From IMG/VR virus record IMGVR_UViG_3300042923_000211, positions 1-21,406 of that record: a DNA stretch of 21,406 nucleotides; one strand, given 5' to 3'. The notes below the pieces were generated by a model. It did not search any database. It saw nothing but the letters and a program-made list of their open reading frames with translations, and had not been told where the DNA came from. Shown in pieces: positions 5,944 to 17,862 of this stretch (positions are counted from its first letter, which is position 1; each line of letters opens with the position of its first letter). Source of the DNA: a virus. A program made the translations under genes and the position numbers.

Positions 5944-7140
5944 TTAGCTCTCAGTAACGTCGTCAACAAGCCCGTGCGTATTACGACGGTGAGTACCGAG
6001 CTGGCAGTACTTAAACAGCGTAGAGTCATAAGCATCGTAACCAATAACTCGCTGCCACTTAGATCCATCGCGGTCCATAAAGGACCAGTCACCCTCGCGA
6101 TAGATCTTAAGTTCCTTCTCGTTCATAAAGTACATGCGGTTAGGCTGGCAGTCTACGTCAGAGATAACGGGGATCTCACCGTTATCCGTCGTAAATGCAA
6201 GGCCCTTAAATCCGCCCTCGAAGTCCTTAGTGTCGCAGTAACGACGCTGCTGAACCAGGAGGTTAAAGTAACTACGGCGCACACCGAGAGTTGTAAAGAT
6301 AGCGGTAGTGTTACCACCGTTAGTGTAGATATCGTCAACCATCTTAATCATAAGAGACTCAGACAGTGCACGATTAACGCCCGCGTTATCGTTGATAACC
6401 GACTTCCACACGGACTCTACAGACGGGTCAACGTTAAACAGCGTGGTTGTGTCGTCTACAATCTGCTCAAGACCGATAATCTCTCGGTTAAGCGAACCGT
6501 GACGAACAACAATGTCATTAGCAGCAGTGGCTACAGAAGGTGCAGCATCCAGCTCAATAGACGTGTCCTTAGTAACGTCTACAACTTCCGCACCGGCCGC
6601 AGCAGTCTTAAGCGTAGTACCCGTAGAGTCGTAAATATCTACGATCATACCGACTTCCATATACTGCGTATTAGCAGTAGGCACGGTAACCGTAGTATTG
6701 ACTCCACTAACCGTCATAAGGGCACCAACAGAGGTACCGTAAATCTGACGGTTAAAGTCCTTAGAGAGGTCTCGCTGAACGCCATTAACTTCCTCATCCA
6801 GAACGGATGCGAAAGCCTGGAAATTAGACTGCGCAAGTTCCATCGACTGCCCAGAGAGTCGAATAGAACCATACTGATAACTAAGACCGACCTGCGCACG
6901 CGCATAACCCTGATTACGGGCTACAGGAAGCTCTTCCATTTCCAGTCGCGCACCGATACCGTGGTTACGCTTAACGTGGATAGGGAAGACAACATACTTA
7001 CCGCCGACTTCAGAAGTAACACCTTCTGAAGTCTGCTCAATACGCTTAGAAGTCTTAAGGTGATTCTGGAGCTGTTCCCGAATACGGGGCTCGTAAATTT
7101 CCTTGAGGATATTAGTTGCAGTTGTGAGCGTAGCGCCCAT
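5944..7140 (-). CDS. Major capsid (coat) protein
   Basis: A 398-aa protein of HK97-fold coat size. The N-terminal helix (MGATLTTATNILKEIYEPRI) leads to a segment typical of actinophage coat proteins, with GGKYVVFPIHVKRN near residue 47 and a long helix near residues 100-140. A Thr/Val/Ala-rich insertion (about 160-210) follows, then a conserved C-terminal half. It lies immediately after the scaffold, with a strong GGAGG site three bases before the ATG and a terminator directly behind it, as expected for the most abundant virion protein. I see no N-terminal protease or cleavage signal. It contains one exact 9-bp repeat (LPVARN). Confidence 0.88.
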   Translation of the reverse strand: MGATLTTATNILKEIYEPRIREQLQNHLKTSKRIEQTSEGVTSEVGGKYVVFPIHVKRNHGIGARLEMEELPVARNQGYARAQVGLSYQYGSIRLSGQSMELAQSNFQAFASVLDEEVNGVQRDLSKDFNRQIYGTSVGALMTVSGVNTTVTVPTANTQYMEVGMIVDIYDSTGTTLKTAAAGAEVVDVTKDTSIELDAAPSVATAANDIVVRHGSLNREIIGLEQIVDDTTTLFNVDPSVESVWKSVINDNAGVNRALSESLMIKMVDDIYTNGGNTTAIFTTLGVRRSYFNLLVQQRRYCDTKDFEGGFKGLAFTTDNGEIPVISDVDCQPNRMYFMNEKELKIYREGDWSFMDRDGSKWQRVIGYDAYDSTLFKYCQLGTHRRNTHGLVDDVTES

Positions 7141-7151
7141 TAGCCTCCGAG

Positions 7152-7955
7152 CTACTTTTTACCGAATTCAGCTTGCAACATTTGAGCTACGAGATTACGA
7201 GTCTCCTTACCGGAGAGCTGCGTAGGATCAATAGCTTGTGAGGGAAGGCCAGTACCGCCACTGCTATTACCAAGAACATTAGGAGCAAACGGCCGATTCT
7301 GGCTAATATTACTAACCAGAGACTGATACGCCTTAACTGCGTCTTCTCCAGATGCTCCATTAAGCATCTTGGTAAGTACATAGTCTTCATCGTATTCGCC
7401 ATACTTCTGCTTAAGACCAGCTAGCTCGGTCTCAAGTTCGCTATCAGCCTTAGAAGCTTCCTTAGCCTGAGCATCATTAAGAACAATCTGGGCTACAGCC
7501 TGAAGAATACCTTCCTGCTGCTCCAGCTTAGATGCAATTTCAGGATCGATACCATAAGGAGTATCGTCATCATCGTCGTCACCATCATTATTAAGCTTGG
7601 CTACAGGAGGAGTTTCCTGGCCAAACTTATAGGCTTCTGCTAGAGCCTTATAAACATTCTCCGGGTTGTTGTTAATCTCCCACATAAGGCGGAGACCCTG
7701 TTCAACTTCCTGCGGATTAATGCCGTGCTCTACAAAAGGCTTAAAGCCCTCAAATTCCTTAAGTGAGTTATTAGCAGCCTCAATCCTAGACTGTGCTGAC
7801 TGATCCCACTTTTGAAAATGAGGGGTAACAACCTGATGAAATTGTTCCGGCAATACGCTAAGTACGTCATTCCAAGCAGGGTTAGGCCCTGGAACATCAC
7901 TCTGATCAGGAGTGTTATCCTGTACCTGACCACTATCTTCTACCGGCGTACCCAT
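7152..7955 (-). CDS. Capsid scaffolding protein
   Basis: A 267-aa, acidic, mostly helical protein directly before the coat gene, the standard scaffold position. Two helical parts (about 20-110 and 135-200) are joined by an acidic linker containing seven Asp residues (about 124-131). The C-terminal part has Gly/Ser/Pro-rich segments and ends in a short helix with a basic Lys-Lys tail, in line with scaffold C-termini that contact coat protein. No protease motif is visible. The ATG has a GAGGGA ribosome site. One exact 9-bp repeat sits in the linker just before the Asp run (PPVAKL), where sequence is probably under little protein constraint. Confidence 0.8.
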   Translation of the reverse strand: MGTPVEDSGQVQDNTPDQSDVPGPNPAWNDVLSVLPEQFHQVVTPHFQKWDQSAQSRIEAANNSLKEFEGFKPFVEHGINPQEVEQGLRLMWEINNNPENVYKALAEAYKFGQETPPVAKLNNDGDDDDDDTPYGIDPEIASKLEQQEGILQAVAQIVLNDAQAKEASKADSELETELAGLKQKYGEYDEDYVLTKMLNGASGEDAVKAYQSLVSNISQNRPFAPNVLGNSSGGTGLPSQAIDPTQLSGKETRNLVAQMLQAEFGKK

Positions 7956-8020: not shown

Positions 8021-8290
8021 TTAAACAACTTCATTAGGCCGAGGAAGAGGTGCTCCCTCGTCAGTATTACCCTTCGCCTTATTTACCTCAGCAACCTTAG
8101 CCCTAATGAAGCAATCCTTAGCCTCAAGAAGCTTACGAAGACCTGCTGTAAGCTCGGGGTCAGACTCAATATCGTCTGACATACTATAAGCAACCTTAGC
8201 AAATGTAAACGAAATACTCTTAAGAGGTTCAGGGAGGTGGTCGTATTCGAAGAAACGAAGAATATCTTTCTCAGAAGAGTGCCGACTCAC
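8021..8290 (-). CDS. Acb2/Tad1 hairpin-like small protein, candidate cyclic-nucleotide sponge
   Basis: An 89-aa protein starting at a GTG that overlaps the previous stop (GTGA). It reads as two helices: a first one with FFEYDHLPEPLKSISFTFAK (about residues 13-32) and a second with ELTAGLRKLLEAKDCFIRAK (about 46-65), joined by a short acidic turn. From memory this pattern (aromatic-x-H-L-P, then L-R-K-L-L-E-A-K-D-x-x-x-R-A) belongs to small actinophage proteins related to the Acb2/Tad1 hairpin family. Characterised family members bind cyclic nucleotide signals and block CBASS or Thoeris defence. The match is from recall, not a search, and binding residues cannot be checked. It lies in the head-gene cluster between small proteins and the scaffold. 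Confidence 0.5.
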   Translation of the reverse strand: MSRHSSEKDILRFFEYDHLPEPLKSISFTFAKVAYSMSDDIESDPELTAGLRKLLEAKDCFIRAKVAEVNKAKGNTDEGAPLPRPNEVV

Positions 8291-8448
8291 TTCTTACTCT
8301 CGTCCTTCTTCTTAGCAAGGCGCCTGGAAATAGCGCCCTTCTTGCTTTCGGCAACTTCCTTCTTCATGTTACCGAAAGGCTGACCGGCACTACCAACTGG
8401 CTTATTGTTAGCCATAGTGCCGCCCTTAGACTTAAAATCCATAGCCAT
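8287..8448 (-). CDS. 53-aa basic protein in head cluster
   Basis: A 53-aa, Lys/Arg-rich protein with Gly-rich N-terminal half and a basic helix (ISRRLAKKKDE) at the end. Its ATG shares one base with the stop of the 55-aa gene (TAATG) and its TGA overlaps the GTG of the next gene, so both ends fit the operon's coupling rule. The C-terminal GAISRRLAKKK pattern closely echoes GAIGRRLAMRSKGK in the neighbouring 55-aa protein, suggesting the two are related or duplicated. Function unknown; basic charge beside portal and scaffold may point to a nucleic-acid or capsid-interior role. Confidence 0.65.
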   Translation of the reverse strand: MAMDFKSKGGTMANNKPVGSAGQPFGNMKKEVAESKKGAISRRLAKKKDESKK

Positions 8449-8615
8449 TATTTCCCCTTACTACGCATAGCCAACCTACGCCCAATAGCTCCCATCCGGC
8501 CATTATCACGATTCTTGGCTACAGGGGGCTTTCGTCTGCCACCTAGACTAGCATTCTGTTGTGCCAGCGCGCTAGTCGCATTATCGACCATCTGCTGATC
8601 TGGATTACCGAACAT
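8448..8615 (-). CDS. 55-aa basic protein in head cluster, related to its neighbour
   Basis: A 55-aa protein with an Asn/Gln/Ala-rich N-terminus, a basic linker with RRKPPVAKN (about 27-35) and a basic C-terminus (MGAIGRRLAMRSKGK). Both ends use one-base TAATG overlaps with neighbours. The C-terminal basic helix resembles that of the next gene, so this looks like a small duplicated module. The linker carries one exact 9-bp repeat. Too short for confident family assignment; the clean coupling at both ends is the main support that it is real. Confidence 0.65.
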   Translation of the reverse strand: MFGNPDQQMVDNATSALAQQNASLGGRRKPPVAKNRDNGRMGAIGRRLAMRSKGK

Positions 8616-8896
8616 TATGCAGTCCTTGCTGTCTGTGCAGTAACATAGTCAGCGATAGTCGTAGAGTCCTGAATACTACGCACGGCGAAGATCTTATCGT
8701 TAACGTTCATAATCTGGAGCTGCTCTGTCGAGTATGTAAACTCATCATAAGCGTTCAGGAATGCATCCAGATTAGTAATATTAGAATAGTCAGAAGGGTC
8801 CGTAAGCTGGTCCCCACTACCACCATTACCATCAACAGCGCGAAGAGAGTTGGTAAAGTTAACTTCGAGAATATCCCCGAACTGTACCTGTGCCAT
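8615..8896 (-). CDS. 93-aa acidic hypothetical protein after portal
   Basis: A 93-aa acidic protein rich in Asp, Thr, Asn and Ser with a predicted beta N-terminus (residues 3-20) and a helix near 41-58. It follows the portal by a two-base gap and couples to the next gene by TAATG. No motif is recognised. Size and location between portal and scaffold would suit a head accessory or decoration protein, but no family support is visible. Confidence 0.6.
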   Translation of the reverse strand: MAQVQFGDILEVNFTNSLRAVDGNGGSGDQLTDPSDYSNITNLDAFLNAYDEFTYSTEQLQIMNVNDKIFAVRSIQDSTTIADYVTAQTARTA

Positions 8897-8898
8897 GA

Positions 8899-11067
8899 TT
8901 ACATCACCGGCCCTTGTTGTGCTCCCATTTCCGGGGGCATTTGCATATTCGGAGGCATTTGCTGCATACCTCCTGCCTGATCAGCCTCTATTTGTTGAGT
9001 CTGATCAGAACCTGCTTCTCCAGGTGTAATAGCATTAGCACCTTCAGTAGGTGCAGGTACACCAGGAATAAGCCCGAGCGCCATCATATGCTCGTTTACA
9101 TGTGCTTCGAACAGATCCTTAATACGCTGAGGAAGCTGCTCGTATTCCTGTCCCTTACGATAGTTATTGTGCACCTGAATATGAATCTGGTGGTTATCGT
9201 AAGTATTGACTGGAACAATGAGGGGAGGCGGTACAGGCTGACCCGTTTCATCGACCATAGGCTGGCCTGTATTAGGATCAACTAGCATAGGCCGACCTGT
9301 AGCCGGGTCCTGCCCCATAAAGGTTTGCAGGTATTCATCCATATTCTGTTCAGTAACAGTGCTCATCTTCATATTCTCACGTGTAGCCTGAGCACTATCA
9401 ATCTGAATCTCTTCGTAAAGCCGCTGCACTCCCCCAACGTCCATAAGCTCAAGACCCTTTTCGGGAGGAATAAATCCCTGAGTCATAAGATCCATAAGCA
9501 GAGCCTGCTTAGCAGACTTAGACGTAGGCAGTGCAGAACCAGCCTCTACGCGAATATCTGTGTTATCCCCCAGCATAGAGCCTTGGAAAGAGATAACATT
9601 AAACTGCTGATCACGACCCACTACCTTAACAATACGGGGAGTATCCCAGTATTGTTTAACGTAGCAGAGAGTCTGATAACCGATCTTCTCAAAACCTTCT
9701 TCAATACTGCTAAATGTAGTGCTAAGCATAGACTCATCCTGCTCTTGCAGGAAGCTAATTGCTGTAGCCGCAGTAACTCCAGGAGGAACTTGTCCCTTAC
9801 TAACCTGATGCTGACCGCTAATATCTTCAAAGTCTAGAAGTAGTCTCTCTGCCTCTTGAATAACATAATTAGGCAGGTTTTGCAGTGGCAACGGTTGCGG
9901 GGGTGGAAATCCAAGCTTATAAAGAATAACCTGACCCGGTTCAGTATTGATCTTAGAAGCATCAATAGAACCTTCCGCCGCCAAAAGCTGAGGATGTGCC
10001 ATACGGTTTTTAGCTTCAATCATCTGACCCCGTGTACGGTTATATTCCCTCTGAATAGGAATAAGGTCCAGAATAATTGAATCATCGTAAAATCGACCCG
10101 TAGGGACATGCCCAAATTTAATAAACGGGTACTGCTGATGCATATAGGGGTTACCCTCTACCATCTGAACAATCTGATCACCAATGATGGTATACATACC
10201 ACCATTAGGCATAAAGTCCACCTGGCCAGGCTTAACCCAAACTTCATAACAAAGGACCGCATTCTTGCGGAAATCTGCTGCTCCCACAAGATTAAGGAAA
10301 CTATCATTAAGAATATCGTTAGCTTCCATCACGTTCGGCTGAAACTTAATTCCAGGGTAATTAAGTTTAACCCACTCAGGAGCCTTAGCCTGAATATGAA
10401 TAATATACGGCTGATCTTCAATATCAGTCGCCATCATATCCGGAACAAAAAGATGGAAGGGAGTTACATTCTCGTAGCAGAAGTCACCAGGGTTACCCGA
10501 CTTGTCTTTCTTATTCGGGTCCCAATATGTCTTCATAAAACCACTACCGCAAGTGAGAGTCCATAGCATTGTCTGCTTAAAAACGGACTTAATCTTCTTC
10601 TCGCGATATGTAGCGTCCCATATCTGCTCTCCCGCTTGCGCGGCAGCTAGATCTCTATCTTCTCCTGTAGCCGGAACAATAGTAGCTGTAGGCTTCTGTG
10701 CTGTAAGTTTAGCCAGTTCCGTACGAATTACAGGTCGAATCCTATTGATAACAGGACGAGCCCTATAATAAGGAGCAGGAGGAATATAGAGGCGCACCCC
10801 AGTAGCAGCACTGCTAGCGCTAGAGATTGGAATGACTGCCACATTTTGCTTCCCAATATAGAAGGCCAGATTAATATACCACTGACGCTCTATCTGCTGA
10901 CGTGCAGTACGGCAACGCAAATGAGCAGACTTAGTCCACTCAATTACCTTATTCTCAAAATCCTGCTGCTTAGAGTTCTTAGCTAGCTTCTGTAGCTGCT
11001 CATCACTGTACTTGTTATTATCTTCTGTAGCCCCGACTACCGAAGACGACGGTTCAGTTATGCTCAT
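8899..11067 (-). CDS. Portal protein
   Basis: A 722-aa protein in the size range of P22-type portals. The order terminase, portal, scaffold, coat supports the call. The first 120 residues contain a helical, basic segment and the pattern RPVINRIRPVIRTELAKL (about 123-140), typical of the portal clip and wing region. The centre has conserved stretches such as YEVWVKPG and IPIQREYNRTRGQMIEAKNR. The C-terminus (about 650-722) is Met/Gln/Pro-rich and disordered-looking. In the virion twelve copies form the DNA entry vertex and dock the terminase. The ATG has a very strong GGGGAGG site three bases upstream. Two exact 9-bp repeats occur, both in the Ala-Thr-Gly frame (VPATGED, DPATGRP). Confidence 0.88.
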   Translation of the reverse strand: MSITEPSSSVVGATEDNNKYSDEQLQKLAKNSKQQDFENKVIEWTKSAHLRCRTARQQIERQWYINLAFYIGKQNVAVIPISSASSAATGVRLYIPPAPYYRARPVINRIRPVIRTELAKLTAQKPTATIVPATGEDRDLAAAQAGEQIWDATYREKKIKSVFKQTMLWTLTCGSGFMKTYWDPNKKDKSGNPGDFCYENVTPFHLFVPDMMATDIEDQPYIIHIQAKAPEWVKLNYPGIKFQPNVMEANDILNDSFLNLVGAADFRKNAVLCYEVWVKPGQVDFMPNGGMYTIIGDQIVQMVEGNPYMHQQYPFIKFGHVPTGRFYDDSIILDLIPIQREYNRTRGQMIEAKNRMAHPQLLAAEGSIDASKINTEPGQVILYKLGFPPPQPLPLQNLPNYVIQEAERLLLDFEDISGQHQVSKGQVPPGVTAATAISFLQEQDESMLSTTFSSIEEGFEKIGYQTLCYVKQYWDTPRIVKVVGRDQQFNVISFQGSMLGDNTDIRVEAGSALPTSKSAKQALLMDLMTQGFIPPEKGLELMDVGGVQRLYEEIQIDSAQATRENMKMSTVTEQNMDEYLQTFMGQDPATGRPMLVDPNTGQPMVDETGQPVPPPLIVPVNTYDNHQIHIQVHNNYRKGQEYEQLPQRIKDLFEAHVNEHMMALGLIPGVPAPTEGANAITPGEAGSDQTQQIEADQAGGMQQMPPNMQMPPEMGAQQGPVM

Positions 11068-16820: not shown

Positions 16821-17010
16821 GACTCTCCTTACAGGTGCAGCCGTCTACAGGGTCCCAAGAATAACAGATATTTTTATAGTCCTTATGTCCGCAAGGATAG
16901 TTACGAATAATGTCATCACGGCGACCCGCTACTTGCCTACCACATTCAGTGCATCTAAGATGGGGATTAGCATACCGAGTAATAGTGTAAGTCCGTACAC
17001 TTACTGCCAT
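16813..17010 (-). CDS. 65-aa zinc-finger protein
   Basis: A 65-aa protein with seven potential ligands: CTEC (about 20-23), CGH (about 40-42), C at about 49 and CTC near 58-60. This is consistent with one or two small zinc sites. Basic residues precede the second half. Its ATG overlaps the TGA of the small terminase by one base. Small zinc proteins of this kind are common near terminase genes and may bind nucleic acid or partner with packaging proteins, but no specific family is recognised here. Confidence 0.65.
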   Translation of the reverse strand: MAVSVRTYTITRYANPHLRCTECGRQVAGRRDDIIRNYPCGHKDYKNICYSWDPVDGCTCKESHG

Positions 17011-17699
17011 CAGATTATCTCTTTTCTGGTTGACACACCCGGAATCGAATTAGATTTGGCTACAGGAGAGCCAGACTCAATAGCAATTTGGCTCATCTCT
17101 ACCGCGAGGGCATTGAGCTTAGCCGGGTCCTTAATGTGCTTCTGGATAGCTTCTAGCACTCGACCGATAACCAAACGCACGTTAACGTTAGATTCCTTGT
17201 CAGGATCGTACCTACCAGTGAGCTTATAGTAGAGCTGAATACTGGCGGTATTACCCTGGTTAACTCCACGCAATAGGCCCAAGTGTGCCATGTGGGTAGA
17301 GTTATTAATCATCTGCTCTGAGCGCTGCCTAACATATTCCGCAAAGTGATTATTCAGAAGCCATGTGGACCATTCCTCAGTACTGATACCGAGATCGCGA
17401 AGCTTCTTTTCATCACTACGTCTATCGACAAGATTAAGCATTGCGGCTACAGCGGCTAGCTGTCGAGCACTAATAAAAGAGTCACTGCTAGCAATACCAC
17501 GGCTCTGCATAGATGCCTGGAATAGAGGATTCTCTTTAAGTACATTAACGTCCTCCTCATTAACGTCATGCCTGAGCAGCCTCAGATAACTAACTATATC
17601 ATCCTCAGGAGGAAAAGCACCAGCAACACTATGTATACGTTCTACGTAATTAACTACATCGCGCTGCCATGGTTCCAAATATTCTTGAGCTTCACTCAT
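17010..17699 (-). CDS. Terminase small subunit candidate
   Basis: A 229-aa, mainly helical protein. The region at about 100-165, with SEQMINNSTHMAHLGLLRG and ASIQLYYKLTGRYDP, resembles the conserved core of actinophage and Firmicutes small terminases that carry an N-terminal HTH. The N-terminal helices (about 20-75) could form that DNA-binding part. Small terminases recognise the packaging site and hand DNA to the large subunit. Here about 3.5 kb, holding the amidase and tip genes, separates it from the large subunit, an unusual split. I use the ATG at 17699, which overlaps the upstream stop by 8 bases; a GTG nine bases earlier is possible. One exact 9-bp repeat lies in the flexible C-terminal tail (SPVAKS). 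Confidence 0.72.
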   Translation of the reverse strand: MSEAQEYLEPWQRDVVNYVERIHSVAGAFPPEDDIVSYLRLLRHDVNEEDVNVLKENPLFQASMQSRGIASSDSFISARQLAAVAAMLNLVDRRSDEKKLRDLGISTEEWSTWLLNNHFAEYVRQRSEQMINNSTHMAHLGLLRGVNQGNTASIQLYYKLTGRYDPDKESNVNVRLVIGRVLEAIQKHIKDPAKLNALAVEMSQIAIESGSPVAKSNSIPGVSTRKEII

Positions 17700-17862
17700 C
17701 CCAATCACTACCCCAATCCTCTTCGGTCATCGTGCCGGAGAGGATTTTCTTTTGAATATGTTCAGGTACATCTTCCCAAGCCACAATAGTCTGATCCCTT
17801 CTAGTTACATAAAGAGGGTAAGGCTCGTAAAGCCTGTGACTAAGCTGAAATTCGTCACTCAT
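17692..17862 (-). CDS. 56-aa acidic hypothetical protein
   Basis: A 56-aa protein starting at the ATG with an ideal GGAGG site five bases upstream; a longer in-frame version lacks one. It is acidic at the C-terminus (TEEDWGSDWDE) and has a Tyr/Pro-rich middle. The stop overlaps the small-terminase start by 8 bases. Function unknown; tight linkage to small terminase hints at a packaging or regulatory partner. Confidence 0.6.
   Translation of the reverse strand: MSDEFQLSHRLYEPYPLYVTRRDQTIVAWEDVPEHIQKKILSGTMTEEDWGSDWDE

Follow-up and report, generated by a model that had tools for sequence, protein, structure and literature searches.

A phage helical-hairpin protein as a candidate divergent sister branch of the Acb2/Tad1 superfamily

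The head gene block and the hairpin gene

The window analysed here is the whole 21,406-nucleotide stretch of the virus record IMGVR_UViG_3300042923_000211. Its minus strand carries a head gene block that, in the direction of reading, consists of the portal gene (8899-11067; phrog_156, 2e-53), small ORFs of 93 (8615-8896), 55 (8448-8615) and 53 codons (8287-8448), the gene for an 89-aa protein with a GTG start (8021-8290), a probable scaffold gene (7152-7955) and the gene for the major capsid protein (MCP; 5944-7140; phrog_14242, 7.9e-105; SU10_MCP, 1.7e-8). The acidic scaffold candidate is assigned from its position between portal and MCP; it matches phrog_33339, a family with no known function, and is homologous to gp16 of Arthrobacter phage Jasmine (5e-19). 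The 93-aa ORF evolves fast (35-59% identity among relatives) and has a weak gerPA/gerPF match (E 0.012) that lies below the cut-off, while an ORF occupies the slot of the 55-aa product in relatives as well. The small basic 53-aa ORF has relatives in six related contigs (L003, L005, L008, L010, L012 and L013) and gave no match in Pfam and PHROG searches. Elsewhere in the window, a 232-aa protein encoded at 17010-17708 has an HTH_Tnp_1_2 match just under the cut-off and may be the small terminase.

An earlier note on this DNA had described the 89-aa product as a two-helix hairpin embedded between the portal-side small genes and the scaffold and translationally coupled there, with aromatic-x-H-L-P and LRKLLEAKDCFIRA segments, and each of these points is borne out. 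The first segment, FEYDHLP (8231-8251), forms a loop between a short N-terminal helix and the hairpin, and its F, H, L and P are near-invariant in the family (98, 99, 100 and 95% of rows, respectively). The second segment, LRKLLEAKDCFIRA (8099-8140), lies in the second hairpin helix, where arginine (99%), lysine (98%), glutamate (100%), alanine (100%), lysine (100%) and aspartate (99%), together with a further arginine (99%), dominate their columns among 190 family rows. The start codon of the hairpin gene lies within the TGA stop codon of the upstream 53-aa ORF, giving a GTGA overlap (aagaaGTGA; 8287-8290) that recurs in relatives L001, L004 and L012; the start is reached through a TAATG overlap in L005 and follows a 3-bp gap in L003. 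Judged from the nucleotide sequence, the GTGA overlap is an architecture of translational coupling. The order of portal, small genes, hairpin gene, scaffold and MCP is kept in the eight related viral contigs searched, some of which are near-identical to one another, and the hairpin protein is 54-70% identical across them, compared with 82-95% for the MCP. This conserved place among structural genes suggests late expression; searches for promoters and terminators around the hairpin gene gave none above chance level.

Distribution and gene settings of the family

Most of the protein is covered by matches to phrog_5120 (2.5e-23; residues 2-72) and phrog_1761 (2.2e-21; residues 4-72), both PHROG families whose function is listed as unknown. 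In tblastn searches with the hairpin protein, homologues were found in 338 phage records (phages of Vibrio, Mycobacterium, Erwinia, Acinetobacter, Gordonia and others), in at least 580 viral stretches and in 194 stretches of bacterial genomes from many phyla. Given these strong profile matches and homologues that number in the hundreds and span phages and several bacterial phyla, the gene at 8021-8290 is not a chance ORF. The spread through Proteobacteria, Firmicutes, Bacteroidota and other phyla also shows no actinophage speciality, so the association with actinophages that had been proposed from the sequence is not upheld. An alignment of 62 rows has 14 invariant columns and yields the family core FxYxHLPxxLQxVS....PExTAGLRKLLEAKDCxVRA.

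The places of family genes differ between genomes. They are found between tail and lysis genes, adjoining the MCP gene, between the small and large terminase genes and in early or replication regions, and also in jumbo phages and T4-like genomes. Of 121 genes that adjoin viral family members, those of terminase, portal and endolysin families are the most frequent. These differing places and recurrent late neighbours point to an accessory gene found preferentially in late operons. All family copies that we inspected are either annotated as hypothetical or carry a wrong name (endopeptidase Rz or occludin). For instance, in the Acinetobacter records OQ101257 and OQ101258 and in Citrobacter phage phiNP (OR565852), members or overlapping genes bear the names 'occludin homology domain protein' or 'endopeptidase Rz'; the first of these seems to stem from a chance match between helices. 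We found no paper that names the family (phrog_5120/phrog_1761). In Erwinia phage pEa_SNUABM_23 (L021:2740-3192), a short P-loop-like region (GAVGSGKS) precedes the hairpin domain in a fusion protein. Among the long upstream extensions of family ORFs, most of which are unread frame, only this Erwinia fusion looks real, while the 148-position phrog_1761 profile suggests that a P-loop fusion may recur.

Jasmine is the nearest annotated phage by terminase (46% identity over 82%), and its head genes include homologues of the portal, scaffold and MCP described here, with no hairpin gene between portal and scaffold. Likewise, Cellulosimicrobium phage DS1 has a homologous portal-scaffold-MCP block with a different small ORF in the hairpin slot. 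The hairpin gene is thus an accessory gene. Jasmine carries instead, just upstream of its terminase gene, two tandem hairpins, gp9 and gp10 (L360:2881-3404), which belong to a group of sequences referred to below as REKS-type. Both are annotated as hypothetical and lie between a gene for a PnuC-like nicotinamide riboside transporter and the terminase gene.

Relation to the Acb2/Tad1 superfamily

The AlphaFold2 model of the hairpin protein, whose numbering begins at protein residue 2, has a mean pLDDT of 94 and comprises helices 4-13, 22-39 and 44-71, the last two forming the hairpin. The Acb2 protomer is built from one short helix followed by two long antiparallel helices (PMC12043709, PMC10419184), and the predicted model has the same plan, a short helix and then a long helical hairpin. 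In a BFVD fold search, the Acb2/Tad1 hairpin protein of Providencia phage PS3 took rank 7 (E 0.18, probability 0.98), behind six family-like proteins. A Foldseek search of the PDB with the model returned no Acb2 or Tad1, only designed and unrelated bundles, whereas 7uq2 and 8h2x were recovered with a REKS-type control model. The REKS-type model also aligns with T4 Vs.4 and Acb2 (Z 6.4 and 6.2, respectively).

The earlier note had placed the protein in the Acb2/Tad1 hairpin family, for which Pfam holds the profile PF24729. The known sponges of this kind bind and release cyclic nucleotides or gcADPR, by which phages mop up the immune signals of bacteria and inhibit CBASS or Thoeris. The hairpin protein has no match to PF24729, and HMM searches with it in Pfam, NCBIfam and PADLOC gave nothing. 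Against the curated Pfam cut-off of 27 bits, the best relative reaches 16.4 bits and the T4 Vs.4 control 70.3 bits. A single relative of the 62 matches PF24729 (0.052), and five match Occludin_ELL (best 0.01), which is surely a chance similarity. The sub-threshold PF24729 scores of single relatives (0.011, 0.052 and 0.057) were considered as a lead and set aside; they are equalled by the chance Occludin_ELL matches and hence are not used as proof.

PF24729 itself holds at least two sequence kinds, namely an Acb2/Vs.4 type (GYRELS...DxRW...LQQGFM..R) and the REKS-type (F.YH.P...PDgREKS.A.T.LEEA.MWANAAIAR), and it is through the second that the hairpin family can be connected to the superfamily. 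An HMM built from 99 REKS-type rows, none of them a member of the hairpin family, was searched among 21,507 ORFs and scored hairpin-family members at 4e-5, 2.4e-4 and 5.7e-4, interleaved with Acb2-type proteins. In the reverse search with the hairpin-family HMM, ranks 1-40 outside the family were all REKS-type (best 2.4e-4). Alignment of the two deep profiles with hhalign gave Prob 92.8, E 4e-7 and a score of 35.4 at 18% identity, with all controls under the real score (maximum of 20.8 for 200 column permutations and 10.8 for the reversed profile). A separate profile-profile run on smaller alignments gave Prob 90, and the first hhalign comparison, on shallow alignments, Prob 4.6. The independently built profile phrog_1454, which is of REKS-type, matches relative L206 (3.5e-5), T4 Vs.4 (9.7e-4) and an Acb2-like protein (0.012). 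Compared with the PDB, the REKS-type profile matches 9ptq, deposited as 'Acb2 homolog 43' (6.5e-11), and Tad1 (2.5e-4). A PDB sequence search with hairpin-family profiles gave no significant match, with 9ptq third at E 0.4, and a profile comparison of the hairpin family directly with Acb2-type proteins gave nothing.

On profile evidence, the best reading is that the hairpin family represents a divergent sister branch within the Acb2/Tad1 superfamily rather than a member of Pfam PF24729. We speak of a sister branch because the REKS-type link was found and the direct comparison with the Acb2 type was blank; the assignment made earlier is hence retained at the level of the superfamily and given up at that of the Pfam family. 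The REKS-type thereby provides a sequence path by which a divergent branch can be recognised. The hairpin protein shares with REKS-type proteins (phrog_1454; PDB 9ptq; gp101 of actinophage StellaBean) its size, the helical hairpin, the F.Y before the hairpin, the PDGxEKS turn and the L.LEEA register. It resembles Acb2 (PaMx33/41 gp24; T4 Vs.4) in its predicted protomer plan and as the product of a small phage accessory gene, but differs from it in gene neighbourhood and shows no direct match to it in sequence or profile. With Tad1 (CbTad1, CmTad1) it shares a C-terminal two-helix hairpin, related via the REKS-type, but Tad1 is about 125 aa long with an N-terminal beta-sheet (PMC12043709), while the protein described here has a short helix in 89 aa. 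REKS-type proteins such as StellaBean gp101 (L363:304-501) and gp61 of Curtobacterium phage Yotsuba are already annotated, by inference, as 'cyclic nucleotide sequestering protein'. The role of such hairpins in mycobacteriophage infections has been stated to be unknown (PMC11953737). Acb4 was rejected as an identity, since that protein is tetrameric, contains beta-strands and has a dsRBM-like fold (PMC11722364).

Pocket columns and proposed role

The pocket columns of the Acb2 type and the hairpin family were mapped onto each other via the REKS-type. Acb2 Tyr11, Lys26 and the loop arginine of DxRW are taken here to be ligand contacts, Lys26 for dinucleotides and the DxRW arginine for trinucleotides. 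The Lys26 column holds lysine in 97% of Acb2-type and arginine in 88% of REKS-type sequences but serine in 94% of the hairpin family. Similarly, the DxRW arginine (73% in the Acb2 type) corresponds to the turn arginine of the REKS-type (98%) and to proline in the hairpin family (82%). Threonine, at 75% in the Acb2 type and 98% in the REKS-type, is replaced by arginine (99%), and the methionine column (100% in the Acb2 type, methionine or phenylalanine in the REKS-type) by aspartate (99%). The arginine near the C-terminal end of the last helix is common to the Acb2 type (97%) and the hairpin family (99%), with alanine in 81% of REKS-type sequences. The aromatic residue in F.Y before the hairpin (tyrosine 76%, phenylalanine 12%, tryptophan 6%) lies outside the aligned core of these columns; a longer alignment pairs it with the F.Y of the REKS-type, and it is a candidate counterpart of Acb2 Tyr11. 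The family has HLP, RKLLEAKD and VR as its own invariant residues. If the Acb2 contacts are as we take them to be, the known contacts have largely been lost and a new polar set has become fixed.

We propose that protomers made up of the short N-terminal helix and the long antiparallel hairpin, which is predicted with high confidence, would assemble into an oligomer by analogy with Acb2; the Acb2/Tad1 sponges are homohexamers that hold their ligands in pockets between protomers. In the oligomer proposed here, the FxYxHLP loop and the second hairpin helix, with its invariant RKLLEAKD..VR face, would line such pockets, and the oligomer would probably sequester a nucleotide-derived immune signal and so act in anti-defence. 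The ligand is probably not that of Acb2, since the lysine and arginine positions tied to cyclic di- and trinucleotide binding are replaced. Taken whole, a divergent sister branch whose oligomer probably sequesters such a signal is to us marginally better than evenly balanced, and the sponge function by itself, plausible and unproved, stands at about even as the leading reading.

The same columns may be read differently. The family could belong to the superfamily by descent and no longer be a sponge, its hairpin now serving another purpose, for instance to bind and inhibit a host protein or nucleic acid that is itself conserved. This would explain why the known contact columns are replaced while a different group of residues (H, S, E, R, K, E, A, K, D, R) hardly varies between phyla, as a new conserved target would lead one to expect. 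The fusion to a P-loop-like domain in Erwinia jumbo phages fits this as well. However, hairpin geometry, rather than coordinates, places the FxYxHLP loop and the second half of the last helix, which hold a large part of the invariant set, at the end where Acb2 has its dinucleotide pocket, and the C-terminal arginine column is shared with the Acb2 type; we regard a loss of sponge function as rather unlikely. Chance similarity between unrelated helical hairpins of like composition is suggested by the commonness of such hairpins, by single-sequence Pfam scores at noise level and by the low identity to the REKS-type. It is improbable in light of the reciprocal, exclusive ranking among the ORFs searched, a profile-profile score far over permuted and reversed controls, the independent phrog_1454 match and a register that is the same through PDGxEKS and L.LEEA.

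A role as a minor protein of head or packaging morphogenesis, acting together with portal and scaffold, would account for the coupled, syntenic position of the gene in related phages and for its adjoining terminase, portal or MCP genes in many others. Yet the homologous head blocks of Jasmine and DS1 do without a hairpin-family gene there, and family members occur in lysis, early and replication regions, as well as in jumbo and T4-like genomes that encode unrelated heads, so that we give this explanation little credence. That Jasmine keeps a recognised superfamily branch beside its packaging genes favours an anti-defence over a structural role.

For the preferred sponge reading, a bolder version can be held tentatively and is less likely than the sponge function itself, namely that the family is a large, phylum-crossing, unnoticed branch of the superfamily, often co-expressed with head and packaging genes, whose pocket residues have been swapped for an immune signal bound by no known sponge. 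The carriers include mycobacteriophages and Vibrio phages among the phages of many hosts. If the family does act as a sponge whose pocket has changed, it would point to a bacterial signal not yet paired with a sponge, and its members would form a ready test set.
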